DNA of 44,363 nucleotides from Streptomyces alboflavus (GTDB lineage Bacteria; Actinomycetota; Actinomycetes; Streptomycetales; Streptomycetaceae), in NCBI RefSeq assembly GCF_000716675.1, contig NZ_JNXT01000072.1:1-44363 (forward strand), in the 5' to 3' direction. Below the pieces are notes generated by a model, which saw only the letters and a program-made list of their open reading frames with translations, searched no databases and had not been told where the DNA came from. Of this stretch, positions 9,514 through 24,820 are shown piece after piece. Both the position numbers and the translations under genes were made by a program. Position 1 is the stretch's first letter, and each line of letters starts with the position of its first letter.

Positions 9514-11337
9514 TTGCGCGAGTTCACGAACCCTCCCATGGCGTCGGCGCCACGGGTGGGCGGTCTTGCCGACGCCGTGTTCGACCATGCCCTTGAGGAT
9601 CCGGTCCGCGTCGTCCTCGGCCGCAAGCTCGACGGGGTGTGGCAGGACGTGACGTCCGCGGAGTTCCGGGACGAGGTCCTCGCGCTCGCCAAGGGGCTGC
9701 TCGCGCAGGGCGTGCGGTTCGGCGACCGGGTCGCCATCATGTGCCGCACCCGCTACGAGTGGACGCTGTTCGACTTCGCCCTGTGGACCGTGGGCGCGCA
9801 GGTCGTGCCCGTGTATCCGACGTCGTCGGCCGAGCAGGTCTTCTGGATGCTGCACGACGCGCAGGTGTCGGCGGCGATGGTCGAGCACGAGGACCACGCC
9901 ATGACCATCGGCTCGGTCGTCGACCGGCTGCCCCAGCTGCGCCGGCTGTGGCAGCTCGACGGCGACGCGGTACGGGAACTCTCCGAGGCCGGGCGGGACC
10001 TGGACGACGAGGTGGTGCACCGCCACCGCCGCGCGGTCACACCGGACTCCGTGGCCACCGTGATCTACACCTCCGGCACCACGGGCCGCCCCAAGGGCTG
10101 CGTCCTGACCCACGCGAACTTCATGTTCGAGGTGGACACGCTCGTCGAACGCTGGGAGCCGGTGTTCCGCGGCAGGCGCGGCGACGAGCCGTCCACCTTG
10201 CTGTTCCTGCCGCTCGCGCACGTCTTCGGCCGCATGGTGCAGGTCGCAGCGGTGCGCGCCCGCGTCAAGTTCGGCCACCAGCCGAGCCTGAACGCCGCCG
10301 CCCTGATCCCCGACTTCGCCGCGTTCCGGCCGACGTTCATCCTGGCCGTGCCGTACATCTTCGAGAAGGTCTTCAACGCCGCGCGCCGCAAGGCCGACCG
10401 GGAGGGCAAGGCGGGAGCGTTCGACAAGGCGGTGGAGGCGGCGGTGCGGTACGCCGACGCGACGGAGGCCAAGGCCTTCGGCACCGGGCCCGGCCCCTCG
10501 ACGGCGCTCCGCATGCAGCACCAGGTCTTCGACAAGCTCGTCTACGCCAAGGTCCGTGACGCCATGGGCGGCCGGGTGCGGCACGCGATGTCCGGCGGCT
10601 CCGCGATGGACCGGCGTCTCGGCCTGTTCTTCGCGGGCGCGGGCGTGCAGGTCTTCGAGGGGTACGGCCTCACCGAGTCGACGGCCGCCGCGACCGCCAA
10701 CCCGCCCGAGCGCACCCGCTACGGCACGGTCGGCCAGGCCATCCCCGGCACCACCGTGCACATCGCCGAGGACGGCGAGGTGTGGCTGCGCGGCGGCCAT
10801 GTCTTCCAGGGCTACCTCAACGACCCCAAAGCCACCGACGCGACCCTGCACGACGGCTGGCTCGCCACCGGCGACCTGGGATCCCTAGACGACGACGGCT
10901 ACCTCACCATCACCGGCCGCAAGAAGGAGATCCTGGTGACCTCCGGCGGCAAGAGCGTGTCGCCCGCGCAGCTGGAGGAACGCGTCCGCGACCACCCCCT
11001 GGTCGCCCAGTGCATCGTCGTCGGCAACGACCGCCCCTACATCGCCGCCCTCGTCACCCTCGACGCGGAAGCCGTCGAGCACTGGCTCTCCATGCGCAAC
11101 AAACCCCCGATGCCCCCCGGTGACCTGGTCCGCGACCCCGACCTGGAGACCGAGGTGCGGCGCGCCGTGGTGGCCGCCAACACCCTGGTCTCCCAGGCCG
11201 AGTCGATCCGCACCTTCCGGATCCTCGCCCACCAGTTCACCGAGGAGCACGGCCTGCTGACGCCCTCGCTGAAGCTCAAGCGCAAGGCCATCGAGCAAGT
11301 ATACGCGGACGAGGTCGAGGCGCTCTACCACACCTGA
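9514..11337 (+). CDS. Long-chain fatty acid--CoA ligase (FadD-like, AMP-forming)
   Basis: This 607-residue ANL-superfamily enzyme activates fatty acids to acyl-AMP and then acyl-CoA. The phosphate loop YTSGTTGRPKG is at 185-195. YGLTES (adenine and acid pocket), the hinge region TGDLG and GRKKEILVTSGGKSVSP (catalytic lysine region) follow in order. The TTG start is chosen because AAGGAG (9503-9508) lies 5 nt upstream and the product then begins (M/L)REFTNPP, the form I recall for Streptomyces relatives; ATG 9538 would lack a good ribosome site. The upstream dyad suggests repression by a lipid-responsive regulator. The gene is a single unit, convergent with the GH28-like gene. Confidence 0.93.
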   Translation: MREFTNPPMASAPRVGGLADAVFDHALEDPVRVVLGRKLDGVWQDVTSAEFRDEVLALAKGLLAQGVRFGDRVAIMCRTRYEWTLFDFALWTVGAQVVPVYPTSSAEQVFWMLHDAQVSAAMVEHEDHAMTIGSVVDRLPQLRRLWQLDGDAVRELSEAGRDLDDEVVHRHRRAVTPDSVATVIYTSGTTGRPKGCVLTHANFMFEVDTLVERWEPVFRGRRGDEPSTLLFLPLAHVFGRMVQVAAVRARVKFGHQPSLNAAALIPDFAAFRPTFILAVPYIFEKVFNAARRKADREGKAGAFDKAVEAAVRYADATEAKAFGTGPGPSTALRMQHQVFDKLVYAKVRDAMGGRVRHAMSGGSAMDRRLGLFFAGAGVQVFEGYGLTESTAAATANPPERTRYGTVGQAIPGTTVHIAEDGEVWLRGGHVFQGYLNDPKATDATLHDGWLATGDLGSLDDDGYLTITGRKKEILVTSGGKSVSPAQLEERVRDHPLVAQCIVVGNDRPYIAALVTLDAEAVEHWLSMRNKPPMPPGDLVRDPDLETEVRRAVVAANTLVSQAESIRTFRILAHQFTEEHGLLTPSLKLKRKAIEQVYADEVEALYHT

Positions 11338-11352
11338 CCCGTGCCGCACGGG
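11338..11352. terminator. Small dyad between convergent genes
   Basis: CCCGTGC-C-GCACGGG is a 15-bp near-perfect palindrome inside the 25-bp gap between the ligase stop and the GH28-like gene stop. It may be a weak bidirectional terminator. No T-tract is present. Confidence 0.35.
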
Positions 11353-11362
11353 GCGCGGGACG

Positions 11363-12949
11363 TCAGCCGCAGTCCTCGCTCGACCCGCTCTGGCTGATCC
11401 GCAGGGCGCCGCCGCCGGTGTCGGCGCTGTCGCGGACGCAGTAGCCCTGGGTCCGCTGGAAGACGAGGTCGGCGGGGCTCGACGAGCCGCGCTGTGCGGT
11501 GAAGGCGGTGAAGCGGATGCCTGTGCTCTCGTTGGCGATGACGGCGGGCCGTCCGTCGTTCGACGCGAAGCGGACCTCGCTGTCGACGAACGTGACGCGG
11601 TCGGCGCGGCGGATGTACCAGCCGTAGGCGGGCCGGGTGCCGATGCTCTTCGGGTTGTAGTCGGTGGACTTGTTGCTGGGGACGCCGGTGGACATGGTGC
11701 CGTTGCCGCCGGGCACGGTGAGGTCGACGTCGGTGAAGGTGACGTCCTTGATGCGGCTCTGCCCGGACTCGCCCCACAGGGTCGGCGAGAAGGACGGGCT
11801 CGCGCCGGTCGCCTTGATGTCGGTGTACGTGACGTCGCTGATCGAGCCGACGCCCGGGTTGTTGCCGCAGCGTCTGCGGTCGCCGATCTTCTGCATGATC
11901 GGTGAGCGCACGCCGGTCATGGTGATGTCCTTGTAGTGGACGTCGGAGATCTTCGAGCCGTCCATGGACACCATGCCGAGTCCGGACTTCTCCGAGCCCT
12001 CGATCCTGATCCGCTCGAAGCGGTAGTCGGTGAAATCTCCGCAGGTCTCCGAGCCGAACATGAGGGCGTTGCAGCACCCGGCGGAGAGGGAGGAGTCGCT
12101 CACGCGCACCCGGCCGTTGGACAGCTTCGCGCCGAGGGCGTAGTCGCTCTTGAAGGCGAGCGCGTCGTCGTTGGCGTCCAGGTGGGCGTTGGTGATGGTC
12201 ACGTCGGTGGTGTTGATGACGTTCCAGCCGTCGCGGTCCATCGCGGTGTCGATGGTGAGCCGGTCGGAGACCACGTCGTCGCAGCCGTTGACGAGCGCCG
12301 CGAAGTGGCCGCCCTCGCGCAGCGTGAGGCCGTCGCCGAGGCGCAGGCCCTTGCACCGCGTCAGCGAGATGATCTTGTCGGCCTCGCCGGACTTCGGGTC
12401 GCCGGTGATCAGGGCTCCGTCGCCGTCGATGACGCCCTCGCCGACGAACGCAATGTTGCTGAGCCGGTCGCCGTGGATCATGGCGTTGTGGAAGTGGCTG
12501 TGGCCGTAGTCCTGGTAGTCGTCCCACTCGTTGGGCTCGGGCGGGTCGTAGTCGTCGGCGCCGTTGCCGGAGAGCGTGGCGCCCTTGTCGATCTGGAGGG
12601 TCACCTCGCTCTTCATGTGCAGGGTGTTCTTGGACTCGTACGTCGCCCTGCCGTCCCCGGGCAGGCGCACGGTGCCGCCGCCCGCGGCGGCGGCCGCGTC
12701 CACGGCCTTCTGCAGGGCGGGGGTGTCGTTGCTCGATCCGTCGCCCTTGGCACCGTAGTCACGGACGTTGAACTCGGCTGCGGGCGACGGCTGTTGCGGT
12801 ACGGACGACCGGACCGTGCCGGTCGCTCCGTCGTGGAACCGCGTGGCCCCGGCGGGCTGCCCGTCGAAGACCGCGAGCACCGCGAGCGCGGCGAGGCCCG
12901 CCGCCAGGGCTCCGGTGCGTGTGCGTGATCTGCTCGTCGATCTGCTCAT
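11363..12949 (-). CDS. Secreted right-handed beta-helix protein, GH28 polygalacturonase-like
   Basis: This 528-residue protein has a signal peptide (hydrophobic core about 13-27, cut near AGA-TR). The parallel beta-helix opens with NVRDYGAKGDGSSNDTPALQ at 61-80, the standard entry of pectate-lyase-fold and GH28 proteins. Asn260-Asp-Asp in LDANDDALAFKS resembles the catalytic D-D strip of polygalacturonases, with MDRDGWN about 20 residues earlier. The canonical GHG and RIK motifs are not evident, so the substrate may differ from plain polygalacturonan. ATG 12949 follows GAGGGG. It is the last gene of the minus-strand PQQ/uronate run, 153 bp after the dehydrogenase stop. A CCACCG/CGGTGG stem (13054-13075) in that gap may attenuate transcription or mark a separate promoter region. 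Confidence 0.82.
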   Translation of the reverse strand: MSRSTSRSRTRTGALAAGLAALAVLAVFDGQPAGATRFHDGATGTVRSSVPQQPSPAAEFNVRDYGAKGDGSSNDTPALQKAVDAAAAAGGGTVRLPGDGRATYESKNTLHMKSEVTLQIDKGATLSGNGADDYDPPEPNEWDDYQDYGHSHFHNAMIHGDRLSNIAFVGEGVIDGDGALITGDPKSGEADKIISLTRCKGLRLGDGLTLREGGHFAALVNGCDDVVSDRLTIDTAMDRDGWNVINTTDVTITNAHLDANDDALAFKSDYALGAKLSNGRVRVSDSSLSAGCCNALMFGSETCGDFTDYRFERIRIEGSEKSGLGMVSMDGSKISDVHYKDITMTGVRSPIMQKIGDRRRCGNNPGVGSISDVTYTDIKATGASPSFSPTLWGESGQSRIKDVTFTDVDLTVPGGNGTMSTGVPSNKSTDYNPKSIGTRPAYGWYIRRADRVTFVDSEVRFASNDGRPAVIANESTGIRFTAFTAQRGSSSPADLVFQRTQGYCVRDSADTGGGALRISQSGSSEDCG

Positions 12950-13102
12950 GTCCCGTCCCCTCGCTGTGCGTCGGCGGCCCGCGCCCGTGCGGCGCCGGGC
13001 CGTTCTCGCCCCGGCCGGGCCGACGGTGACCGCCCGCCCCCCACGGCGCGCGGCCACCGCCCGCCCGGCCGGTGGTCGTGCGGCTGGCCGGGGTCGCTCC
13101 GG

Positions 13103-14221
13103 CTAGCCGATGGTCACGCGGAAGATCTTGTCCGCGCCGTCCGGCTGCCCGCCGTTGCCGTCCGCGTTGGTCGTGGACAGCCACAGCGCCTTCGCGCCCG
13201 GCACGGTGGTCACCGAGCGCAGGCGGCCGTACTGGCCGACGTAGAAGGCCTTGGCCGTGCCGACGTTCTCGTTGTCGGCGTTGATCGGGATGCGCCACAT
13301 GCGCTGGCCCTTGAGGGCCGCCATGTAGACCGCGCCGTCGACGATCGCCACCCCGCTCGGGGATGCCTCGGCGACCCCCCACGTCTTCTTCGGGTTGGTC
13401 ATCCCGGAGACGTTGCAGTTGCCCTCGCAGGTGGGCCAGCCGTAGTTCTTGCCGGGCTTGATGAGGTTCAGCTCGTCCCTGGTGGCGTCGCCCAGCTCGG
13501 CCTCCCACAGGCGGCCCTGCGGGTCGAAGGCGATGCCTTGCGGGTTGCGGTGGCCGAGGCTGTAGACGTAGTTGTCGAAGGGGTTGCCGGGGGCGGGCTT
13601 GCCGTGCCGGGTCATCCGCAGGATCTTGCCGTTCAGCGAGTTCTTGTCCTGCGCGAGCGGCTTGGACTGGGCGTCGCCGGTGGTGGCGTACAGATAGCCG
13701 TCGGGGCCGAAGGCGAGGCGGCCGCCGTTGTGGTACCTGGCCTTCTTGATGCCCTTGAGCAGCACGGTGTAGCCGCTGAGGGTGGAGCCGTCGTACGTCA
13801 TGCGCGCGACGCGGTTGCCCTCGGACGAGGTGTGCATGAAGTACACGTAGTGGTTCGTCGCCCACTGGGGGTCCACGGCGACGCCCATGAGGCCGCCCTC
13901 GCCGCCCGTCGTCTGGGACTCGGGCACCGTGCCGACCTGCTTCTTCGTCGCGCCGTCGGCCGAGATCGACCAGACCCGGAAGTCGTCGCGCTCGGTGACG
14001 AGCGCGGACTTGCCGTCGGGGAGCCAGGACGTGCCCCAGGGTATGGTCCAGCCGCTGGAGACGGTCTTGATGTCGGTGGGCTCGCCCGCGGGCGCGGCCG
14101 GGGCGGCCGACACCGACGGGACGTACACCACGAGTCCCGCCGCCAGTGCGGCCGTCGCGGCGAGCGCCGTCTTCCGGACGAGACGGCGCCTGCTCCTGAT
14201 ACTGCTCCTGCTGTCGTGCAC
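13103..14221 (-). CDS. Secreted PQQ-dependent sugar dehydrogenase (glucose/sorbosone dehydrogenase fold)
   Basis: This 372-residue six-bladed propeller belongs to the GSDH family. It oxidises a sugar (often aldose C1) and passes electrons to an external acceptor. PQQ-site signatures are visible: HNGGRLAFGPDGYLY with His164 and RNPQG at 225-229, matching the cofactor-binding His and Arg-Asn-x-Gln of soluble glucose dehydrogenase. The leader (RRRLVRK plus hydrophobic segment) could use Tat export. GTG 14221 is preferred because GGAGG lies 5 nt upstream; ATG 14233 would place that site inside the coding sequence. It is 47 nt after the polysaccharide lyase and downstream of pqqA-E on the same strand, so its cofactor is supplied by the same run. 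The AA12 pyranose dehydrogenases are known relatives. The substrate is not predictable. Confidence 0.9.
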   Translation of the reverse strand: MHDSRSSIRSRRRLVRKTALAATAALAAGLVVYVPSVSAAPAAPAGEPTDIKTVSSGWTIPWGTSWLPDGKSALVTERDDFRVWSISADGATKKQVGTVPESQTTGGEGGLMGVAVDPQWATNHYVYFMHTSSEGNRVARMTYDGSTLSGYTVLLKGIKKARYHNGGRLAFGPDGYLYATTGDAQSKPLAQDKNSLNGKILRMTRHGKPAPGNPFDNYVYSLGHRNPQGIAFDPQGRLWEAELGDATRDELNLIKPGKNYGWPTCEGNCNVSGMTNPKKTWGVAEASPSGVAIVDGAVYMAALKGQRMWRIPINADNENVGTAKAFYVGQYGRLRSVTTVPGAKALWLSTTNADGNGGQPDGADKIFRVTIG

Positions 14222-14268
14222 GGGAACCTCCATGTGGGGATGTGGGCGTGGGGGTAAGAGCGTGGCGG

Positions 14269-15078
14269 TCAGGCTTGAGCCGACGAGACGAGTTGGTAGC
14301 CGCGCATGCCCGTCAGGAGCATGTACGTGTTCTGCAGCGAGCCCGAACTGTCGCCGAGGGAGCGGTAGATGCCCCACTTGGGCCGCACCCGGTCGGCGAG
14401 GTAGGTGTCGACGCCGGACCTCGACTTGTCGACGACGGTCGTGCCGCCGCTCTTGAGGATCCAGCGCACGGACCCCGACGAGCCGTCACCGATCTTGATC
14501 TGGAAGTCGACGTCGGTCCACTTGTCGTGCAGCGGCGCCAGGTCGGTGCGGCCGACGAGGATGTCCTGCTCGAAGATCTTCAGCTCGATGGTCTGCTTGC
14601 CGTCGACCCGGCGCAGCGACTGCACGACGATCGGCGCGCTGCCCGCGCCGGGCTGCTTCATCTGCATGATGTGCGTGAAGCTCGTCGTCGCCTTCAGCGT
14701 GCCGGGTAGGAACATGCGGTACGTGACCCGCCAGGTCTGGCCCTTCTGCCACTTCAGGAACGAGTCGCCGTTGCGCAGCCCCGTGACCTCGTGGCGCTGG
14801 CGGTCGGTGCTGGTGTCGCGGTCGACGGTGTGCATCTGGAAGCGGAAGTTGTCGCCCTCGGCGAAGATGTGCGGCTTCGCGGCGGGGTGGGAGTTCGCGC
14901 GGTCGTCCTCCAGGGTCTCGAAGGCGCGCAGGCCGACGTCGCGGGCGGACGGCGACCAGCGCAGCTGCCAGTCCGCGGCGGGCGCGGCGGCGGCCGGCGT
15001 GAGTCCCGCCGCGGCGGCGGCCGCGCCCGCGCCGGTGCCGATCGCCGCGGCAAGCAGGGCTCTGCGGGAGGGGGTCAT
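14269..15078 (-). CDS. Secreted polysaccharide lyase-like protein (jelly-roll, Polysacc_lyase type)
   Basis: This 269-residue protein has a Tat-like leader (MTPSRRALLAAAIG) followed by an Ala-rich signal. The mature part looks like the beta-jelly-roll lyases grouped with heparin lyase I and glucuronan lyases: VTYRMFLPGTLKATTSFTHI in the middle and RPKWGIYRS near the end, a recurrent motif of that group. Such enzymes cleave uronate-containing polymers by beta-elimination, leaving a 4,5-unsaturated uronate. ATG 15078 is 7 nt after the GH105-like stop, with GAGG overlapping that stop. The neighbour upstream would remove exactly the unsaturated residue a lyase makes, which supports the call. A role as a plain glucan-binding protein is the alternative. 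Confidence 0.7.
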   Translation of the reverse strand: MTPSRRALLAAAIGTGAGAAAAAAGLTPAAAAPAADWQLRWSPSARDVGLRAFETLEDDRANSHPAAKPHIFAEGDNFRFQMHTVDRDTSTDRQRHEVTGLRNGDSFLKWQKGQTWRVTYRMFLPGTLKATTSFTHIMQMKQPGAGSAPIVVQSLRRVDGKQTIELKIFEQDILVGRTDLAPLHDKWTDVDFQIKIGDGSSGSVRWILKSGGTTVVDKSRSGVDTYLADRVRPKWGIYRSLGDSSGSLQNTYMLLTGMRGYQLVSSAQA

Positions 15079-15085
15079 GAGGGGC

Positions 15086-16375
15086 TCACCTCTTCTTCCT
15101 GAGTTGCTCGTTCATGATCAGAAAGGCCCCGAGACCGTGGAAGTCGTTGGTCTGCCGGGGCCGGGCGATGTAGAAGGCGTAGTCGCCGACGTTGGTGCCG
15201 ATGGAGATGTCCGTGAGGTCGGTCAGACCGTCGGAGCCGAGCGAGATCTTCTTCAGGACGCCCGCGTGGCCGCGGCGCGCGACGCTCTCGTACGACGGCG
15301 ACACGTAGCCCTTCTCGGCGGCGCGCGACAGGGCGAAGGTGAACATGCTGGAGCACGACGTCTCGGTCCAGTTGCCGCTCTCCGTCCCCTTGTTGACGAC
15401 CTGGAACCAGCGGCCGGTCGCCGGGTCCTGGGCCCGCGCGATCCCCGCCGCCAACTTCCGTACGTGGCCCAGCAGTTCAGGTCGCCCGGGGTCGCTGCGC
15501 GGGGTGGCGTCCAGGACGTTCACCGCGGCCATGGAGTACCAGCCGATCGCCCGGCACCACTGCTCCGGCGCCCGCCCGGTGTCCTTGTCGGCCCAGGTCG
15601 CGGTGCGCGACTCGTCGTAGGCGTGCTGGAACAGGCCGTTGTCCGCCTGGAGGTGGCGCGCGTACACGTTCAGCTGCTCGACGGCCTCGCGGTCGGTGTA
15701 CGTCTCGTCGTCGAACTCCTCGCCGTACTCCACCAGGAACGGCGTGACCATGTAGACGCCGTCCGACCAGAGTTGGTGCGCGCGACTCGCGGTGTCGGCG
15801 TGCCAGAAGCCGCCGTCCTCGGTGCGCGGGTAGGTCTTCAGGCGGTCGCGGATCTTGCGGGCGGCGACGCGGTAGCGGTCGTCGCCGGTCTCGCGGTGCA
15901 GGATCACCAGGAGCCGCCCGGCCTGGATGCTGTCGAGGTTGTTGAACTTCTGCCCGATGTTCCCCTCGCTGTCGACGAAGCGGTCGACGTAGCTCTTGAT
16001 GTACGTCAAGTGGCGCTCGTCGTGGGTGCGTCGGTACGTCTGGTACTGGCCGAAGAGGTAGAGGCCGACGGGGTAGGACCAGCCGCCGATGGTGGCGGGC
16101 GTGAACCGGGTCGTCGTCGACTCGACCATCGCGACGGACCAGTCCGTGCCCTGGGGACCAGCGGTGGACGCCCGGTCGGCGGCGGGCGTGCCGTCGGCCG
16201 ACGCGGGGGCCGTCTGCGCGGTCAGGGCGGCGCACCCGGCGAGCAGCGCGGCGAGGACGGCCCGGGCCGTCCTGCGGTGCGGCCTCGCGGGTGGTGTGCC
16301 GGGGCCGGGCGGAGCGGACGCGGCGGGCTCCGGTCGGGCCGGTATCGGTGAGGTGGGTGAGCCGGGGCGGCGCAT
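15086..16375 (-). CDS. GH105/GH88-like unsaturated uronyl (rhamnogalacturonyl) hydrolase, exported
   Basis: This 429-residue (alpha/alpha)6-barrel enzyme carries the family hallmark LWSDGVYMVTPFLVEY, with Asp205 as the likely catalytic acid. LDSIQAGRLL (Asp148) matches the second conserved Asp of YteR-type enzymes, and FWHADT lies before the motif. It hydrates and releases 4,5-unsaturated uronate from lyase products. Unusually for GH105, which is mostly cytoplasmic, it has a Pro-rich start, RRT and a hydrophobic leader. LAGC at 45-48 could be a lipobox, or cleavage could follow ASA at 58-60. Its ATG overlaps the pqqE stop by one base (TGATG), so it is translationally coupled to PQQ synthesis. 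Confidence 0.88.
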   Translation of the reverse strand: MRRPGSPTSPIPARPEPAASAPPGPGTPPARPHRRTARAVLAALLAGCAALTAQTAPASADGTPAADRASTAGPQGTDWSVAMVESTTTRFTPATIGGWSYPVGLYLFGQYQTYRRTHDERHLTYIKSYVDRFVDSEGNIGQKFNNLDSIQAGRLLVILHRETGDDRYRVAARKIRDRLKTYPRTEDGGFWHADTASRAHQLWSDGVYMVTPFLVEYGEEFDDETYTDREAVEQLNVYARHLQADNGLFQHAYDESRTATWADKDTGRAPEQWCRAIGWYSMAAVNVLDATPRSDPGRPELLGHVRKLAAGIARAQDPATGRWFQVVNKGTESGNWTETSCSSMFTFALSRAAEKGYVSPSYESVARRGHAGVLKKISLGSDGLTDLTDISIGTNVGDYAFYIARPRQTNDFHGLGAFLIMNEQLRKKR

Positions 16376-17469
16376 CAGGTTCCTCCCTCGCGGTAGGCGT
16401 AGCCGGGGTGGTCCGGTGCGGGCCCGCGCGCCGCGTCGACCAGGGCGCGCACCACGCCGTGGTCGGGTGAGCGGTGGCAGGCGGGGTCGGTGCGGGCGGC
16501 GTCGCCGGTCAGGGCGTGGGCCTGGCAGCGGCAGCCGCCGAAGTCGACGGTGCGCAGCTCGCAGGAGCGGCAGGGCTCACGCATCCAGTCCTCGCCGCGA
16601 TAGCGGGTGAACGCGGGCGAGGACCGCCAGATCCAGTCCAGCGTCCGATCCCGTACGTTCGGGGCGTCCGCGCCGAGCAGGTCCGCCGCGGCCGGGCAGG
16701 GCAGCACCGTGCCGTCCGGCGCGACGGTCAGGGACACCGCGCCCCAGCCGCCCATGCACGGCTTCGCGGTGGCGTCCACGTAGTCGGGCGCGACCCACAC
16801 CAGCTCCATCCGGTTGCCGAGCCGGACCCGCCAGCGCTCCAGGGTCACCCGGGCGCGGGCCACCTGCTCCGGATCCGGAAGGAGCGCATCGCGGTTTCGC
16901 AGCGCCCAGCCGTAGAACTGGGTGTTCGCCAGCTCGATCCGGTCGGCGCCCCAGGCCAGGCCCAGCTCCACGAGGGCGTCCAGCGCGTCGAGGTTGGCGC
17001 GGTGCAGGACGGCGTTCAGGCCGAGCGGAAGGCCGGCCTCGCGGACGAGGCGGGCGGCGCGCTCCTTGGCGTTGGTGGCGCGGGCCCCGGCGATGAGGTC
17101 GGCGCGGGCGGGGTCGGCGTGCTGCACGGACAGCTGGACGCTGCGCAGGCCCGCGTCGACGAGCCCGGCGAGGCGCGCCTCGTGCAGGCCGACCCCGCTG
17201 GTCACGAGCTGGGTGTGGATGCCCGCCGCGTCCGCCGCTGCCACGATGTCGCGCAGATCGCGGCGCAGCAGCGGCTCGCCGCCCGACAGGTGTGTCTGGA
17301 CGACGCCCAGGTCAGCGGCCTGCCGCAGCACGTCGGCCCACTCGCCGCCGGACAGTTCAGCTGACCGACTGTTCAGTTTGACCGGGTTGGAGCAATACGC
17401 GCAGCGGAGCGGGCAGCCGTGGGTCAGCTCGGCGAGGAGGGCCCAGGGCGGTTCGGGCGCGGGGCTCAT
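16375..17469 (-). CDS. pqqE: PQQ biosynthesis radical SAM protein PqqE
   Basis: This 364-residue radical SAM enzyme forms the first C-C bond, between the Glu and Tyr side chains of PqqA bound to PqqD. The cluster motif CxxxCxxC is at Cys19, 23 and 26 (THGCPLRCAYCSNP). The SPASM region carries CMGGWG, LPCPAA and a C-terminal CRSCELRTVDFGGCRC cluster for the auxiliary iron-sulphur centres. LSGGEPLLR is the usual SAM-binding GGE motif. ATG 17469 overlaps the pqqD stop by 4 nt (ATGA). The length is normal for the family. Confidence 0.96.
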   Translation of the reverse strand: MSPAPEPPWALLAELTHGCPLRCAYCSNPVKLNSRSAELSGGEWADVLRQAADLGVVQTHLSGGEPLLRRDLRDIVAAADAAGIHTQLVTSGVGLHEARLAGLVDAGLRSVQLSVQHADPARADLIAGARATNAKERAARLVREAGLPLGLNAVLHRANLDALDALVELGLAWGADRIELANTQFYGWALRNRDALLPDPEQVARARVTLERWRVRLGNRMELVWVAPDYVDATAKPCMGGWGAVSLTVAPDGTVLPCPAAADLLGADAPNVRDRTLDWIWRSSPAFTRYRGEDWMREPCRSCELRTVDFGGCRCQAHALTGDAARTDPACHRSPDHGVVRALVDAARGPAPDHPGYAYREGGT

Positions 17470-17951
17470 CGCAACCACCTCTGCGCACGCAACCGGCCGA
17501 GGAACACCGGGACCTCGGCGCCGACCGGCGCGCCCGGGTGGCGCCGCTCGAGCTCCGCGACGATCCCGGCCACGTCCCGCTCCCCGTCGCACAGCGCCAC
17601 GATGCTCGCGGCCGCGCCCCGCAGCACCACGACGCGCTCGGGCAGCAGGAGCAGGTCGGCGCCGCGCACCCGGTCGCGGCGCAGGACGACGGAGCGGGCG
17701 AGGACGGGCCGCCAGTCTGGGGGCACGGGCTCGGTCGCGACGCCGCCGGGGCCGTGGGCGACGGTCGGACCGCCCGCGCCCGAGCTGCCCGCATCCGAGC
17801 CGTGGTTGCCCGAGCCACCGGCACCCGAGCCACCGGCACCCGAGCTACCCGCACCCGGGCCGTCGGCGCCCCAGCCGTCAACGCCAGGCCCGTCACCCTC
17901 GCCCAGGCCGTCGGCGACCCACGCATCACCGTCCACGGAGACCTCACGCAT
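17466..17951 (-). CDS. pqqD: PQQ biosynthesis peptide chaperone PqqD with repetitive N-terminal extension
   Basis: The last roughly 90 residues (from about VPPDWRPVLARSVVLRRD) form the wHTH-like PqqD domain that binds PqqA and hands it to PqqE. The usual ALLLLPERVVVL and CDGERDVAGIVAELERR patterns are present. The other 70 or so residues are a Gly/Ser/Ala-rich linker built from 5-residue repeats, making 161 residues rather than the usual 90-100. ATG 17951 is supported because it overlaps the pqqC stop by 8 nt. A GTG inside the frame just before PPDW could give a short form, so internal initiation is possible. Confidence 0.9.
   Translation of the reverse strand: MREVSVDGDAWVADGLGEGDGPGVDGWGADGPGAGSSGAGGSGAGGSGNHGSDAGSSGAGGPTVAHGPGGVATEPVPPDWRPVLARSVVLRRDRVRGADLLLLPERVVVLRGAAASIVALCDGERDVAGIVAELERRHPGAPVGAEVPVFLGRLRAQRWLR
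17779..17898. repeat. 15-bp tandem repeat encoding the PqqD linker
   Basis: Eight units of 15 bp (plus-strand form CCCGAGCCACCGGCA) run head to tail. The units at 17809-17823 and 17824-17838 are identical and the others diverge. On the minus strand each unit codes for five Gly/Ser/Ala-rich residues. Because the unit is a multiple of three, copy number can change without breaking pqqD. Confidence 0.85.
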
Positions 17952-18747
17952 CCCCGCCCCCCTCCTCCACACCCGCACCCGCACCCTCACCGAAAGCCCC
18001 GCAGGACGACCCCGCAGGCGCCCCGCCAGACACCGCGTCGAGCAGCGACCACAGCACATCGCACTTGAAGGCGAGCGCCGCCACGGCCCGCTCCTGCTCC
18101 TCGCGGGTGCGGGCCCAGGCGCGCACCAGGCCGAGGGCCTCCTGTCCGTCCCTGCCGCCCTGGCCGACCCGGCCCCGGAAGTAGGTGAGGCCCTCGGTGT
18201 CGATCCACGGGTAGTGGCGCTCGAACGCGGCGATGCGGGTGCGCATGAGGTCGGGCGCGGACAGCTCGGTGAGCGAGGCGGCGACGGCGTCGAGTGCGGG
18301 CCGCAGCCGGCAGAAGTTGACGTATCCGTCGACGGCGAGGCGCACCCCGGGCAGCACCCGGGAGGTGTCCCACAGCTCCGCGCGAGGGATCCCCGCGGCC
18401 TCGCCGAGCCGCAGCCACCGCTCGATGCCGCCCTCGCCGGGGCGCTCCCCGTCGTGGTCCCTGATCCGCCGCGACCAGCCGCGGCGCAGCGCGGGGTCGT
18501 CGAACTTGGCGAGGATCAGGGCGTCCTTGACGGGGATGTGCCGCTGGTAGTGGAAGCGGTTGGCGATCCAGCGGCGCAACTCGGCCCGGGTCAGGGTGCC
18601 TTCGTGCATGCGGACGTTGAAGGGGTGGCGGTCGTGGTAGCGGGCGGCGGAGACGGCGCGCAGCCGCTCGGTGAGTTCGTCGGGGGTCCAGGGCGCCCGT
18701 TCGGCCCCCGTCCCGGACTCCGCGTCGGTCTTGACGGTCGTGGTCAC
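17944..18747 (-). CDS. pqqC: Pyrroloquinoline-quinone synthase PqqC
   Basis: This 267-residue protein has the heme-oxygenase/TenA-like helical fold and catalyses the final cofactor-free ring closure and eight-electron oxidation to PQQ. Family stretches are clear: LRAVSAARYHDRHPFNVRMH near the start, LTRAELRRWIANRFHYQRHI, and the conserved RDHDGE and HYPWI segments. The GTG start at 18747 overlaps the pqqB stop as GTGA. The C-terminal 25 residues are a Gly/Ala-rich tail not usual for PqqC. The downstream end overlaps the pqqD start. Confidence 0.96.
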   Translation of the reverse strand: MTTTVKTDAESGTGAERAPWTPDELTERLRAVSAARYHDRHPFNVRMHEGTLTRAELRRWIANRFHYQRHIPVKDALILAKFDDPALRRGWSRRIRDHDGERPGEGGIERWLRLGEAAGIPRAELWDTSRVLPGVRLAVDGYVNFCRLRPALDAVAASLTELSAPDLMRTRIAAFERHYPWIDTEGLTYFRGRVGQGGRDGQEALGLVRAWARTREEQERAVAALAFKCDVLWSLLDAVSGGAPAGSSCGAFGEGAGAGVEEGGGDA

Positions 18748-19655
18748 AGCTCGATCACCATCCGGTCCTGCGCGACTTCGAGCCCCCAGTCGGCGAGTTG
18801 CTTGTGCTGTTCGGCGCTCGGGTCGCCGAGCGGGTTGGTGTTGTTGAGGTGCGTGTACAGGCACCGTCCGGGCAGCCCGGCGAGCCGGTGGGCGGTGCCG
18901 CCGGGTCCGGCGACGGGCAGATGGCCCATGCCGGTGGCCGTGCGGTCGCTGAATCCGGCCCGTCGGGGTTCCTCCTCGTCCCAGAAGGTGCCGTCGACGA
19001 GGACGACGTCCGCCTCACGGGCGGCCTCCTCGAAGGCGTCGGTCCAGGCGGCGAGCGCCGGGGCGTACAGGACGGTGCGGCCCGTCCCGGTGTCGTGCAG
19101 GCGCAGGGCGACGGACCAGGCGGCGTCGTCCGGGCCGAGGCCCTCGGCGTAGCGCGGCCGCTTGGCCGAAACCCGCACCGCGGCGACCCGCACTGCTGAC
19201 TGGTCGTTCAGTTGCCGCCCCGCCCCCGTGAGCTCGTGCCAGCGCGTCGAGGCGTACGGGCCGAGCACGGCGCCGAGTCCGAGGCGGTCCCGGACGGCGC
19301 CGAGCACGGGCGCGGTGGCGAGCACCTCGACGCCGTCGCGGGCCTCCCGCAGCCGGGCGATGCCGAGGGTGTGGTCGAGTTCGGCGTCGGTGAGGACGAC
19401 GCCGGCGAGCGGGGAGAGCCGGGTGTCGGCGTCCTGGCCCGCCTCGGGGAGCAGGCCGGGGCAGGCCTCGATCTGCTCGCCGATATCGGGGGTGGCGTTG
19501 ATGACGTACCAGCGGCCGGGGCTCGCGCGCAGGGCGAGCGAGGCGTGCAGGCGGCGGCGTTCCGGGTGGGCGCGTGCCCCGGCACAGCCGGGGCACGCGC
19601 AGTTCCACTGGGGGAGTCCGCCGCCCGCCGCGGTGCCGAGCACCTGGAGCAGCAT
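18744..19655 (-). CDS. pqqB: PQQ biosynthesis protein PqqB (metallo-beta-lactamase fold)
   Basis: This 303-residue protein is the usual PqqB length. It opens MLLQVLGTAAGGGLPQWNCACPGC, with the conserved Cys19, Cys21 and Cys24 (a structural metal site) and the AGGGLPQWNC signature. TDAELDHTLG carries the metallo-beta-lactamase-like Asp/His motif. PqqB is an iron-dependent hydroxylase acting on the Tyr-derived ring of the Glu-Tyr intermediate. ATG 19655 lies 9 nt after the pqqA stop with no clear ribosome site, so it is probably translated by coupling from pqqA. Confidence 0.95.
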   Translation of the reverse strand: MLLQVLGTAAGGGLPQWNCACPGCAGARAHPERRRLHASLALRASPGRWYVINATPDIGEQIEACPGLLPEAGQDADTRLSPLAGVVLTDAELDHTLGIARLREARDGVEVLATAPVLGAVRDRLGLGAVLGPYASTRWHELTGAGRQLNDQSAVRVAAVRVSAKRPRYAEGLGPDDAAWSVALRLHDTGTGRTVLYAPALAAWTDAFEEAAREADVVLVDGTFWDEEEPRRAGFSDRTATGMGHLPVAGPGGTAHRLAGLPGRCLYTHLNNTNPLGDPSAEQHKQLADWGLEVAQDRMVIEL

Positions 19656-19664
19656 CGGGCGGGT

Positions 19665-19802
19665 CTACCGGTCGGCGAGGCGGTACGCCGTGACCTCGAG
19701 CGAGGTCTCCACGACCGTGTACTCGGGGGTCTGCCAGCCGGTGGGCCCGGTCTCGGGAGAGCCCGAGGTGACCTCCGACGTCTCCATCTCGTGAGTGTTC
19801 AT
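19665..19802 (-). CDS. pqqA: PQQ precursor peptide PqqA
   Basis: This 45-codon frame is immediately upstream of pqqB. Its C-terminal half reads WQTPEYTVVETSLEVTAYRL and ends ADR. It contains the invariant E-V-T-x-Y (Glu36 and Tyr40), the two residues joined to make PQQ. A Trp followed by T-P or K-P about a dozen residues before the Glu is also typical. The N-terminal 22 residues (rich in Glu, Thr and Ser) make it longer than classical 23-30 residue PqqA. ATG 19802 has a distant purine-rich site (GGAAGGGTAGG), and ATG 19787 would give 40 residues. No PqqF-like protease gene is in the window, so processing must use another protease. Confidence 0.9.
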   Translation of the reverse strand: MNTHEMETSEVTSGSPETGPTGWQTPEYTVVETSLEVTAYRLADR

Positions 19803-19819
19803 GTGCGTGTGCCTACCCT

Positions 19820-19842
19820 TCCTGAAAAGTGGGGGTTCAGGA
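19820..19842. promoter_or_regulatory. pqqA: Inverted repeat in the pqqA leader
   Basis: TCCTGAA and TTCAGGA (7-bp arms, 9-nt spacer) lie 18-40 nt upstream of pqqA. On the minus strand the downstream arm overlaps the AGGA of the purine-rich site before pqqA. The dyad could be a repressor operator or an mRNA hairpin that hides the ribosome site. Confidence 0.45.
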
Positions 19843-19854
19843 GTCGCTGGGACG

Positions 19855-19869
19855 ACATGCCACGCATGT
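19855..19869. promoter_or_regulatory. ACATGC-CAC-GCATGT palindrome upstream of pqqA
   Basis: A perfect 6-bp inverted repeat with a 3-nt spacer lies 53 nt upstream of pqqA in the pqq/aldo-keto reductase divergent gap. Its compactness suggests a dimeric DNA-binding protein. No regulator gene is adjacent. Confidence 0.4.
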
Positions 19870-19909
19870 GCCTAGGGTGTTCACATGGATGGCCTGCGTT
19901 CAGCGACGT

Positions 19910-19922
19910 GCAACAGAGTTGC
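19910..19922. promoter_or_regulatory. GCAAC-AGA-GTTGC palindrome upstream of pqqA
   Basis: A perfect 5-bp inverted repeat lies 108 nt upstream of pqqA. On the minus strand a TTGACC (about 19943-19938) lies 17 nt before AACTCT, which is inside this dyad. A promoter with an operator over its -10 is possible, but the -10 match is poor. Confidence 0.35.
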
Positions 19923-20015
19923 GTCATGGCGGGACGCGGTCAATGGTTCGGACCGATAAGGTCGGAGCTATATCTAGCCATTCTCAGGGCGCCGGACAGC
20001 GGGAACGCCACGCCA

Positions 20016-20041
20016 GGAATGCGGTCCGGGTCCTGATCGTT
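20016..20041 (+). promoter_or_regulatory. Sigma-R-type promoter for the aldo/keto reductase
   Basis: GGAAT (20016-20020) and GTT (20039-20041) are separated by exactly 18 nt. This is the published consensus GGAAT-N18-GTT of the thiol-oxidative-stress factor sigma-R of Streptomyces. Transcription would start near 20048, giving a leader of about 38 nt before the GTG at 20086. The spacing and position fit, but the motif is short and transcription is not shown. Confidence 0.65.
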
Positions 20042-20085
20042 GACCATGGATGTACCACCCGACGACGTATAAGGATCGAGAGCTC

Positions 20086-20910
20086 GTGAGCAAGGTCCCC
20101 CCGATCATCCTGAACAACGGCATCGAGATGCCGCAGCTGGGCTTCGGTGTCTGGCAGGTGCCGGACGACGAGGCGGAGCGGGCCGTGGCGACGGCCCTGG
20201 AGTCCGGGTACCGCAGCATCGACACGGCGGCCGTCTACGAGAACGAAGTGGGCACCGGAAAGGGCATCGCCGCCTCCGGAATCGACCGCGACAAGCTCTT
20301 CGTCACGACGAAGCTCTGGAACGACAGCCAGGGGTACGACTCGACGCTGCGCGCGTTCGACGCCTCCCTGGAGAAGCTGGGCCTGGACTACGTCGATCTG
20401 TATCTGATCCACTGGCCGATGCCGTCCGCGGACACCTACATCGACACGTACAAGGCCTTCGAGAAGATCCTCGCCGACGGCCGCGCCAAGTCCATCGGCG
20501 TCTCCAACTTCCTTCCGGAGCACCTGGACCGCCTCATCGACGCCACGTCGGTGATCCCCGTCGTGAACCAGATCGAGCTGCACCCGCACCTCCAGCAGCG
20601 CGCATCCCGCGCGTACCACGGCGAGCAGGGCATCGCCACGGAGGCCTGGTCACCGCTCGGCCAGGGCAAGGGCCTCCTGGAGGTCCCGGCGATCATCGCC
20701 ATCGCCCAGAAGCACGGGCGCACGCCGGCGCAGATCGTGCTCCGCTGGCACATCCAGCTCGGGAATGTGGTCATCCCCAAGTCGGTGACCCCCTCCCGCA
20801 TCAAGGAGAACATCGACGTGTTCGGCTTCGAGCTCGACCCGGAGGACATGGCGGCGATCAGCGCCCTGAACGAGGACCGGCGGCTCGGCCCCGACCCGGC
20901 GGAGATGTAG
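20086..20910 (+). CDS. Aldo/keto reductase (2,5-diketo-gluconate reductase-like)
   Basis: This 274-residue single-domain TIM barrel uses NADPH to reduce aldehydes or ketones. The catalytic tetrad is Asp46, Tyr51, Lys76 and His109 (DTAAVYENE, TTKLWND, YLIHWP). IPKSVTPSRIKEN is the 2'-phosphate-binding loop of NADPH-dependent members. The GTG start at 20086 gives the usual SKVPPIILNNG opening and has GAGAG nearby. The upstream sigma-R-type promoter suggests induction by disulphide or electrophile stress, fitting detoxification of reactive carbonyls. It diverges from pqqA, but no functional tie to PQQ is needed. Confidence 0.93.
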   Translation: MSKVPPIILNNGIEMPQLGFGVWQVPDDEAERAVATALESGYRSIDTAAVYENEVGTGKGIAASGIDRDKLFVTTKLWNDSQGYDSTLRAFDASLEKLGLDYVDLYLIHWPMPSADTYIDTYKAFEKILADGRAKSIGVSNFLPEHLDRLIDATSVIPVVNQIELHPHLQQRASRAYHGEQGIATEAWSPLGQGKGLLEVPAIIAIAQKHGRTPAQIVLRWHIQLGNVVIPKSVTPSRIKENIDVFGFELDPEDMAAISALNEDRRLGPDPAEM

Positions 20911-21037: not shown

Positions 21038-24000
21038 TCAACACGTCCGCCGATACTCCAGCGTGGGCAAATACGTCCGCCATTCGTCGCGGTCGAGACC
21101 GCCTCCGGCACGTTCGCAGGCCCGGTCGGCGGCGCGTTCCGGGGAGAGGGGGAGGGCGCGGACGGGGGTGCGGGGGGTGGTGACGCGCAGTTCGTCGCGG
21201 GTGAAGCCGAGGGCGAGGACGGGTCCTTCGGCGCCGGGGTAGGTGGCTCCGGAGAGGCGGGGGGTGTCGGTCTCCCAGAGGCGTACGGTGCCGTCTTCGC
21301 GCCCCACGGCCAGGTGCCGGCCGTCGGGCGAGAAGGCGAGGACCGGGGTGGCGCCGGTGCCCGGGCCGGCGGCGGACTCCGCGAGGACACCGAGCCTGCG
21401 GGTGCCGGACGCGTTCCACAGGGTGAGCCTGCCGTTGCCCCCGGCCACGGCGAGATGGCGGCCGTCGGGGCTGAAGGCCACGGCCGTGATCGAGATCTCG
21501 CCGCGCAGGACCCGGGTCGACGCCCCGGATCCGATGGCGATGCGTTCCCCGTTCCGGGCCAGGACGGTGCGGCCGTTCGGGGACAGGGCGCTCGGTTCGT
21601 CGCCCGCCCGCCGGTGCAGTTGCCGGGTCTGGATGCGCTCGCCGACGCTCCACGCGTCGACGTAATGGCGGTCGTTGTCGCGGTGTCCGGCCGGTGTCCC
21701 TGAGGTGACGACCGGTCCGCCGCCGTCGGGCACCAGCAGGCTCGCCACGTAGGAGGGGATGACGGCGCGTGCCGTCTCCCGGCGCCGGTCGACGCTCCAT
21801 CGCCGCAGCTCGGTACCGCCGTCCGACTCGGCTGTGTACGCGAGGGTCCCGCCGTCCCGGGAGAAGGCGAAGAGCCCTGGTCGGCACTGCGCGCACGTGC
21901 GTCCGGAAAGGGACGACGTGACGGCGCCGTCCCGGGCGTCGCGCAGTTGGAACACCGTTGTCCCGCCCCGGCGCTGGGCGGCCGCGAGGCTTCGGCCGTC
22001 CTGGCTGAACGCGGCCCGCTCCAGCGGTTCGCGCAGCCGGTCGCCGCGCAGCGCGTCGCGCACGTCGAGGCTGCGCACCACTCCCCCGACCAGGTACCGG
22101 ACCACGCCGTCCTTCATGTCGAGCCGGGCATCGACCGCGTCGCCCTCGACGGCGTACCGCATCAGCGGAGTGCCGGGCCGCGACGTGCGCCAGAGCGCGA
22201 TCACACCGTCGCCGGTGGTCACCGCCGTGGCGCCGTCCGCGCTGAAGTCGGCCTCCCATTCGCCGTGTCCGGGCAGGTCCAACCGGGGGCGCTCCCGGGC
22301 GGGCGACAACTCCCAGGTGCGGATGCCGTCCGGGGTGTCGAAGGCGAGAGCCCGGCTGTCCGGCGTGACGGTCCACTTGCCGGCGCGGCAGGCCTGCCGC
22401 CGCACCTGCCGCGGCCACGTCACCCGGTGGCCGCGGCCGTCGGCGAGGGTGCGCACCTCCAGGGCCTCGCCGCCCGGCAGGCAGGTGAGGAGGGACCGGC
22501 CGTCGGGGGTCAGTGCCGGTAGCAGGCCGCGGTCGCTGACGGCGGCCTCGGGCCGGGCCAGGAGCCGGTGCCGCGGCACGTCCCAGACCTGGACCAGGGC
22601 CCGGTCCCGCGCTCGCAGCCTGATGACGAAGGTCCGCCCGTCCGGGCCGAGTTCGCCCTCCACATCGCCCCGGTCCCGCGGCCCGAAGGGCCTGCCGACG
22701 GCGCGGTCGCGCCGGATGTCCCACGCGAGATAGCCGCGCCCGCTGTGGAACACGGCCAGGTTTCCGTCGTCGCTGACGTCCACCAGATCCCCGAGCTTCC
22801 CGGACTCGTAGGTGGCGACGCGCCGGTCGCTCCGTGTGTCCCACACCGACACCCGCTCCTGGTCGACGGCGACGACGACCCGGCCGTCACCGCTCAGGAC
22901 CGTCGGGGTGTTCAAGGAACGCCCGACGGTGGCACCCGACGCGGCGCCCCGCTCCCGCTGCACGCCCGCCGTCCGCACCGCCTCCCGCGTCTCCGGCAGG
23001 TCCGCGATCCGCCACGCCGCCACGCTCAGCCTCATCGCGGCCCTCGGGTCCGAGATCCGCAGCGTCTGCGCGATGTCCGCGACACGCCGGGCCTGCGCCT
23101 CCGCGTCCCGCCGCGCGCTGTCGCGGTTCTGCTGCCACGCGGCGACCCCCGCGACGGCCGCGAGGCACAGCAGCACGGCGAGCGCCGAGAGCAGCACGCG
23201 GGTGCGGCGCGCCGCACGTGCCTTCGTCCGTACGCCGTGCTCGTGGGCGTCGATCGCGGCGGCGAGGAACTCCCGCTCCAGGCCGGTGAGTTCACGGTCG
23301 TCGGCGAAGGCCTCGCGGGCGGCCGTGAGCCTGGTCCCCCGGTACAGCGCACCGGGATCCCGTTCCAGCTCCACCCACGCGAGCGCCGCCTCGGTCAGCG
23401 CCCGGTGCACCCGAAGGCGCTCCCGCCCCACCTCCACCCATCCGAACAGCCGCGGCCACGCGCTGATCAGCGCCTCGTGGGCGAGGTCGACCCGGGAGCC
23501 GTCGACGGTCAGCAGCCGGGCGGCGACGAGGCGTTCGAGCACGTCGCCGCAGTCAGCGGGCAGCTCCGCGCGGTCGACCGTGCGCCGGGTGTCCTGCGTG
23601 CCGTCGCCCGGCGCGACCATCCGCAGGAGCAGCGCCCGCGCCGTCGCGGCCTCGGCGGCGCCGAAACGCCCGAAGACGTCCTCGGCGGTGTGCGCGATGG
23701 CGCCGCGGACACCGCCGATCGCCTCGTACGCCGACAACGTGAGCGTCTTGCCGCTGCGCCGCCGCCAGACCTCGCGCAGCGCGTGCGCCATGAGCGGCAG
23801 GCCACCCGGCTCGTCGCCGACGTCGGCGACCATGCGCGCGGTCAACGCCCGCTCCACGACGAGGCGTTCGGCGAGAGCGGGCCGGACGATGGCCTCGCGC
23901 AGGCGTTGCGGCGGCATGGGGCCGACGAGGAGCGTGGCGTCGCGCAGGACGTCGGCGAGGGCGCCGTGCTCGGCGCACCGGCCGTAGAAGTCGGCGCGGA

Positions 24001-24757: not shown

Positions 24758-24820
24758 CGGGCCCCCTTCGCCTCCCCGTGGCACCGGCCCCCCACCGGCC
24801 GCACGCCCGTCACGCTAGCA

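Follow-up and report, generated by a model that had tools for sequence, protein, structure and literature searches.

A pqq operon continuing into genes for predicted polysaccharide-degrading enzymes and a putative PQQ-dependent sugar dehydrogenase in Streptomyces: a candidate oxidative polysaccharide locus

Organization of the locus

The window analyzed here (the whole 44,363-nucleotide stretch of Streptomyces alboflavus contig NZ_JNXT01000072.1) encompasses a run of nine minus-strand genes within positions 11363-19802, in which the genes for biosynthesis of pyrroloquinoline quinone (PQQ), pqqA-B-C-D-E, are followed by the genes for a GH105 family hydrolase, a PF14099 family jelly-roll lyase-like protein, a GSDH-family sugar dehydrogenase and a GH28-like protein (Table 1). 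This run had been described, along with its junctions, in a first-pass annotation made from the letters alone and is borne out by the sequence. The pqqA stop is separated from the pqqB start by 9 nucleotides (nt); pqqB and pqqC overlap by GTGA (18744-18747) and pqqD and pqqE by ATGA (17466-17469); the 8-nt overlap of pqqC and pqqD (17944-17951) hinges on pqqD starting at ATG 17951, which is uncertain; and pqqE and GH105 share a single base within TGATG (16373-16377). Farther along, the spacing is 7 nt between GH105 and the lyase, 35 nt between the lyase and GSDH, and 153 nt between GSDH and GH28 if the latter starts at ATG 12949.

Because the only GH88/GH105 match in the 9.72-Mb genome is located at this locus, whereas the chance of a random 20-kb stretch holding it is ~0.2%, the linkage between pqq and GH105 exceeds the random expectation. 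A terminator or promoter splitting pqqE from GH105, which the first-pass annotation had named among the findings that would speak against its reading, is ruled out given that the two genes share a base; a consensus scan of positions 11300-20120 detected nothing promoter-like, and the five terminator-like sites that it returned all lie on the plus strand, although such scans cover Streptomyces promoters poorly.

Table 1. Genes and junctions of the run and the genes at the edges of the genomic site (positions in the window)
Feature	Position	Strand	Basis
pqqA, 45-amino-acid (aa) precursor peptide, C-terminus TSLEVTAYRLADR	19665..19802	-	sequence
pqqB	18744..19655	-	TIGR02108 329 bits, cut-off 245
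pqqC, start overlapping pqqB stop by 4 nt (GTGA)	17944..18747	-	TIGR02111 279 bits, cut-off 240
pqqD, low-complexity N-terminal extension if start is ATG 17951	17466..17951	-	TIGR03859 58.6 bits, cut-off 46
pqqE, radical SAM/SPASM, start overlapping pqqD stop by 4 nt (ATGA)	16375..17469	-	TIGR02109 474 bits, cut-off 381
TGATG junction, pqqE stop and GH105 start	16373..16377	-	sequence
GH105 (PF07470) unsaturated uronyl hydrolase	15086..16375	-	PF07470 288 bits
Jelly-roll polysaccharide lyase-like protein, twin-arginine-like signal	14269..15078	-	PF14099 30.6 bits, cut-off 29.9
GSDH-family (putative PQQ) sugar dehydrogenase, signal-like N-terminus	13103..14233	-	PF07995 241.5 bits, cut-off 25
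GH28-like beta-helix protein, rhamnogalacturonidase-like	11363..12949	-	PF00295 74.5 bits; NF049898 283 bits, below cut-off 500
Aldo/keto reductase (AKR), conserved upstream edge of site, outside system	20086..20910	+	PF00248
AMP-binding (acyl-CoA synthetase-like) gene, conserved downstream edge of site, outside system	9538..11337	+	PF00501

Predicted functions of the encoded proteins

PqqB, PqqC, PqqD and PqqE each exceed the curated cut-offs of the respective NCBIfam profiles (TIGR02108, TIGR02111, TIGR03859 and TIGR02109). The hallmark of PqqA is a cross-linked Glu-x-x-x-Tyr pair, and the window peptide, with the C-terminus EVTAYRLADR, carries these residues in the motif EVTAY. If translated from ATG 17951, PqqD comprises 161 aa, of which the PqqD domain covers only the last ~80; the 5' part of the frame (17726-17951) contains a 15-base tandem repeat (17770-17877) that either encodes a low-complexity extension rich in Gly, Ser and Pro or precedes a start located further in.

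The best match of the GH105 protein in the PDB is YteR (1nc5, E 2e-76), and its Asp205 aligns to a column that differs between 1nc5 (Asp) and 2gh4 (Asn). The Asp at this position is the catalytic residue of YteR, and the window protein retains it. For the lyase, the NCBIfam profile search gave no match, and sequence comparison with the PDB yielded nothing better than E 0.5. A Foldseek search with a structure model retrieved PL7 (8bzk) and PL20 (2zzj) enzymes with E 7e-8 and TM of 0.5-0.6, at 13-17% identity to the best of these structural matches, which supports a uronate-lyase fold of the PL7 alginate or PL20 glucuronan type, lyase activity being putative. The closest relative among the matches listed comes from S. 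flavofungini (95% identity); the best 120 matches, where named, are almost only from Streptomyces, many annotated with a Tat pathway signal and some as heparin lyase I family. The GH28 protein passes the PF00295 profile and resembles rhamnogalacturonidases, although it misses the equivalog cut-off of NF049898 (BT4146 type; 283 versus 500 bits). A match to GH29 at 11348-11512 overlies the end of the GH28 gene, so a GH29 remnant in the window is ruled out. As judged by eye, GH105 (secreted or lipoprotein-like), the lyase, GSDH and GH28 all have N-termini that resemble secretion signals.

The GSDH protein retains His168, Arg229, Asn230, Lys308, Arg337 and Arg339, which correspond to His144, Arg228, Asn229, Lys377, Arg406 and Arg408 of the soluble glucose dehydrogenase (sGDH) of Acinetobacter. 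In sGDH these residues hold PQQ or act in catalysis (PMC6881789 for some of these roles). Counting only those GSDH stretches that were long enough to judge, the His, Arg, Asn, Arg and Arg are invariant in all 39 stretches of at least 60% identity from pqqC-anchored loci (some from the same species), and likewise in all 13 from lyase-anchored loci, 11 of which belong to genomes without PqqC (the genomes of L236 and L255 encode PqqC elsewhere). The Lys377 position, occupied by Lys in the window, is Arg in 31 of the 39 island-type stretches. Of 25 stretches in a more distant group (50-59% identity), three have Leu in place of the His and two have Ala in place of the first C-terminal Arg. Across genomes, the island-type GSDH (at least 64% identity) tracks pqqC, which is found in 48 of the 71 genomes that have it versus 40 of the other 321 (Fisher p 2e-20, kinship ignored). 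The genome also encodes three LPMO_10 genes (G000 contigs C1, C5 and C3; none on the window contig), possible electron acceptors of the dehydrogenase.

Recurrence of the linkage in relatives

Of 392 Streptomyces genomes, 88 contain a match to the PqqC profile above the cut-off. These matches amount to 102 places, of which 100 were examined over up to ~9.5 kb per side (G326:C1:9476099 was left out, and contig ends shorten some stretches), giving 101 neighborhoods with the window. GH105 is found in 29 of these, the lyase in 23 and a GSDH-family gene in 59, with GSDH and GH105 together in 25. Among 23 loci with a pqqE/GH105 junction, the window included, the two genes overlap by 4 nt in 18 and by 1 nt in the window, are spaced by 1 nt in two and by more than 100 nt in another two; the script picks the start codon closest to the stop, so these values are biased to short distances. 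Gene calls and clusters in the relatives come from a crude script, with approximate start codons, and some loci in L003-L082 are from the same species as other loci in the set.

The run pqq-GH105-lyase-GSDH recurs in S. aureoverticillatus (L003), S. lasiicapitis (L004; GH28 closes the run there, as it does in the window) and S. aurantiacus (L010), which rules out a linkage confined to a single genome. Alternative orders of the same families are present in L007, L008, L011, L019, L021, L193, L195-L197, L213 and Amycolatopsis L081. GH105+ GSDH- lyase- (signs denoting strands) lie upstream of pqqB in L007, L008, L011, L195-L197 and L213; the order in L019 is GSDH-, pqq, GH105; and in Amycolatopsis GH28 and GH105 adjoin pqqC and pqqE. 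GH105 and the lyase of the L007/L213 type show ~53% and ~43% identity, respectively; they may have been recruited independently or have come about by rearrangement. In a FastTree phylogeny of 149 PqqC proteins, GH105 linkage changes 11 times, at least 8 of these on supported branches. Thus, conservation of the pqqE-GH105 linkage, which the first-pass annotation had left to be checked, holds across relatives and in another genus. GH88/GH105 genes are rare in these genomes; they are present in 22 of 30, most of which were picked for an island or a pqq locus. A second group of pqq loci (L120-L138) was also observed, in which a propeller of the PQQ alcohol dehydrogenase type adjoins 18 of the 19 loci and no GSDH is found in the 19 stretches.

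Larger islands and domain fusions

In relatives, the island at one conserved site comprises pqq, GH105, the lyase, GH28, GH29-like, GH27 and CBM-FN3-GSDH. The list of parts in the first-pass annotation is accordingly correct for the window genes and incomplete as a description of the system, to which the relatives add GH29-like, GH27, GH8 and carbohydrate-binding domains. In many of them, GH105 is followed by a single frame with GH28, GH29-like and F5/8C domains; in L178 this protein is 1087 aa long, and a 1078-aa frame of L012 clusters with it. A 1498-aa frame (L207:1213-5709) combines GH28, GH29-like, F5/8C and GH27. Next in L012 is a CBM6/35-FN3-FN3-GSDH protein, parts of which are seen in several other loci by tblastn. 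L178 has an additional GH8 and encodes a 335-aa island protein (L178:16228-17235), with relatives in several islands, for which no Pfam or NCBIfam match was found at E 0.001. Two of the 120 proteins listed are fusions of GH27 with CBM-FN3-GSDH: P0275 is a single polypeptide with the confirmed domain order GH27-CBM-FN3-FN3-GSDH, and P0278 combines GH27 and CBM-FN3-GSDH according to its listed domains. The GH27-GSDH fusion is the strongest hint that the dehydrogenase may act on sugars freed by glycosidases.

The same genomic site with and without pqq

A full-length orthologue of the AKR gene at the edge of the site is present in 64 of 141 stretches, 29 with pqqC and pqqE and 35 without. The lyase was matched in 83 of the 392 genomes, 43 of these lacking PqqC above the cut-off, and the pqq-less set was drawn from the 40 best-scoring lyase places outside the pqqC set, with 19 weaker ones left out. 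GSDH is found in 27 of the 29 pqq-bearing versus 10 of the 35 pqq-less copies of the site, the latter fraction being valid for lyase-bearing sites only; at 14 of the 27 sites, GSDH was placed from genome-search coordinates, beyond or at the end of the stretch. For GH105, the respective counts are 22 of 29 (seven pqq-bearing copies being without a full-length gene) and 9 of 35. Eight of the 10 pqq-less copies with GSDH also hold GH105, the lyase, GH29-like and GH27. Another 19 (within L230-L267) have the lyase without GH105, GH28, GH29, GH27 or GSDH, one of these (L266) with a GH8 bearing a CBM piece; in L230, L233, L237 and L238, ~5 kb of other sequence separates the lyase from the AMP-binding gene.

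The best AKR tree implies 12 changes in the presence of pqq; counting supported branches, there are at least 7. Fragments of the pqq genes that remain show repeated loss: a 65-aa piece of pqqE in L251, a 74-aa piece of pqqC in L268 (along with fragments of GH105, 36 aa, and GSDH, 25 aa) and a truncated pqqC (93 aa) ahead of pqqD and pqqE in L236. Pieces of GH105 remain in L262 and L265.

An E-V-T-x-Y peptide is encoded in 28 of the 29 pqq-bearing copies. The pqqB gene is absent from the operon in 16 of the 29 (L161, L174, L181, L183, L184, L191, L199, L202, L206, L207, L209-L211, L214, L217 and L218), which amounts to one change on the AKR tree. Loss of pqqB from these genomes is ruled out given that all 16 encode it above the cut-off elsewhere, in several cases far from any listed pqqC place.

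In the window, the AKR gene is followed at 21038-24784 by an nSTAND1 NTPase with WD40 repeats (PF20703), also found near the site in some relatives, and a BNR-repeat (sialidase-like) protein with a laminin-G domain is encoded at 1505-3211.

Interpretation and alternative explanations

We favor, with moderate confidence, the reading that polymer cleavage, sugar oxidation and cofactor supply stem from one transcription unit. Given that the genes overlap, pqqA-E, GH105, the lyase and GSDH (35 nt on) would be subject to the same regulation as a single unit, with GH28 (153 nt on) perhaps included. The signal-like N-termini of the lyase, GH105 and GH28 point to a uronate polymer outside the cell as the source: the lyase would cleave a uronate-bearing heteropolysaccharide, GH105 would take off the unsaturated uronate ends, and GH28, together with GH29-like and GH27 in relatives, would trim other sugars. 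In this group, pqq is most often accompanied by GSDH, which is hence the probable client enzyme; the cell would make PQQ for this secreted protein, a predicted Ca/PQQ dehydrogenase that would oxidize the freed sugars at C1 to lactones and pass the electrons to an acceptor. In many relatives, CBM6/35 and FN3 domains would tether the dehydrogenase to the polymer, and the fusions with GH27 and CBM accordingly suggest that freed sugars are oxidized close to it. In pqq-less lineages, the dehydrogenase probably depends on environmental PQQ, as in E. coli; bacteria that lack pqq and rely on outside PQQ are known (PMC6881789).

Several observations weigh against this reading. None of the genes of the run was recognized as encoding a transporter, a PQQ exporter or an electron acceptor, and the window copy is devoid of GH29, GH27 and CBM. 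The lyase exceeds the PF14099 cut-off by only 0.7 bits, and its structure model, built from eight sequences, has a mean pLDDT of 75.8. GSDH falls far below the cut-off of TIGR03606, the non-repeat PQQ subfamily (140.7 versus 434.55 bits), and the same PQQ-ligand residues, with Arg for Lys, align in the close PDB relative 3das. Because GSDH-family proteins (E 1e-80 or better) are present in 368 of the 392 Streptomyces genomes, most without pqqC, family membership and the ligand motif are insufficient to prove use of PQQ. At the AKR site, the genomes of the 10 pqq-less copies that retain GSDH have no PqqC match, and, conversely, L144 and L182 are pqq-bearing copies without GSDH. When kinship is taken into account, the pqq-GSDH association is suggestive (7 pairs, on average 4.5 agreeing and 0.1 disagreeing, median p 0.06), and that of pqq with GH105 is similar (7 pairs, 3.9 agreeing and 0 disagreeing, median p 0.125), compared with 10 pairs, 7.9 agreeing and 0 disagreeing, and a median p of 0.008 for GSDH and GH105. 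By these pairwise tests, therefore, the association between GSDH and the glycosidases is tighter than that of either with pqq. Of the cut-and-oxidize pathway proposed in the first-pass annotation, the linkage, the GH105 Asp, the lyase fold and the GSDH ligand residues are upheld; the description as self-contained, with its own cofactor supply, is too strong, given that 10 of 35 pqq-less copies keep GSDH with its ligand residues, that a full-length GH105 is missing from 7 of 29 pqq-bearing ones and that pqq has been lost repeatedly.

The same separations would be expected if the linkage were a historical neighborhood, that is, if the pqq operon and the polysaccharide island shared a permissive insertion site flanked by two conserved genes and were accidentally co-transcribed, with PQQ serving unrelated enzymes. 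The absence of GH105 within ~9.5 kb in 72 of the 101 pqqC neighborhoods, the 19 pqq-less copies with the lyase but none of GH105, GH28, GH29, GH27 and GSDH, the two partial separations just cited, and the firmer company of GSDH and GH105 are all compatible with this scenario. However, it does not readily account for the 4-nt pqqE/GH105 overlap in 18 of 23 loci, for the alternative orders in which the same families adjoin pqq, also outside the genus, or for GSDH in 27 of 29 pqq-bearing copies, and we consider it unlikely.

Given that family members occur in genomes without pqqC, that the ligand motif is equally kept in pqq-less loci and that the PQQ-binding Lys of Acinetobacter sGDH is replaced by Arg in 31 of 39 (though not in the window), GSDH might also be an apo beta-propeller, for example a sugar-binding or lactonase-like protein, only indirectly linked to pqq. 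The exceptionless His, Arg, Asn, Arg and Arg in the island-type group and the strong association of the island-type GSDH with pqqC, combined with the use of outside PQQ by pqq-less bacteria (PMC6881789), make this improbable. Alternatively, the dehydrogenase could be an extracellular electron donor to lytic polysaccharide monooxygenases (LPMOs) or redox mediators rather than a catabolic enzyme, similar to the fungal AA12 enzyme. The CBM-FN3 fusion in relatives and the LPMO_10 genes of the genome fit this possibility, as does the CBM1-bearing fungal CcPDH, which drives LPMOs (PMC5960967); yet no LPMO domain was detected among the island proteins scanned, the three LPMO_10 genes all lie on other contigs than the window, and no cytochrome domain was found on the three GSDH proteins scanned, so that such a role appears very improbable.

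A broader extension of the favored reading is tentative and, on balance, rather doubtful in our view: an oxidative polysaccharide locus in which a polymer-bound secreted quinoprotein and its PQQ come from one unit, the quinoprotein oxidizing sugars as they are set free by the lyase and glycosidases of the same locus (in some species through a single GH27-CBM-FN3-GSDH polypeptide), with PQQ exported and shareable, pqq repeatedly lost, and certain lineages living on the PQQ of their neighbors. If the interpretation is correct, PQQ-dependent oxidation would be integral to the way soil actinomycetes degrade polysaccharides, and the cofactor may be shared between strains.

Comparison with known systems

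PQQ enzymes have been studied chiefly in the Gram-negative periplasm. For the role of Gram-positive GSDH proteins, the locus described here provides a candidate client together with a class of substrates, and the same site with and without pqq amounts to a natural experiment by which that role can be tested. In Proteobacteria, pqqABCDE operons often adjoin quinoprotein dehydrogenases. The Streptomyces run is similar in having the full PqqA-E set in the usual order with a client-type dehydrogenase nearby, but differs in that glycosidase and lyase genes follow with no gap, that the host is Gram-positive and that pqqB is absent from the operon in 16 of the 29 pqq-bearing site copies. With rhamnogalacturonan utilization clusters, such as those of the B. 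subtilis YteR type and the polysaccharide utilization loci of Bacteroides, it shares GH105, GH28 and a lyase; unlike these, it has a PF14099 jelly-roll lyase, contains no SusCD, ABC transporter or regulator, and adds a putative quinoprotein along with its cofactor genes.

The lyase resembles the PL20 glucuronan and PL7 alginate lyases in its predicted fold but not in sequence, where the low identity and the lack of a PDB match better than E 0.5 set it apart. A putative likeness extends to the jelly-roll protein Cip1, for which PL7/PL20-type lyases are the nearest folds and Streptomyces homologues have been reported (PMC3764139). The fungal AA12 enzyme CcPDH (PMC5960967 and PMC6881789) is likewise a secreted PQQ sugar dehydrogenase with a carbohydrate-binding module and a tie to polysaccharide enzymes. 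Its PQQ ligands differ in part (PMC6881789), the three Streptomyces GSDH proteins scanned have no AA8 cytochrome domain, CBM6/35-FN3 takes the place of CBM1, and in Streptomyces the dehydrogenase and PQQ genes belong to one run, whereas PMC5960967 nowhere contains the phrase 'PQQ biosynthesis'. No account of a junction between pqq and genes for GH105 or a lyase turned up in a literature search, in which subscription journals were thinly covered. Polysaccharide clusters are already known, as is the placement of cofactor genes next to the enzyme they serve, and what appears to be new is the merger of both in one overlapping run.

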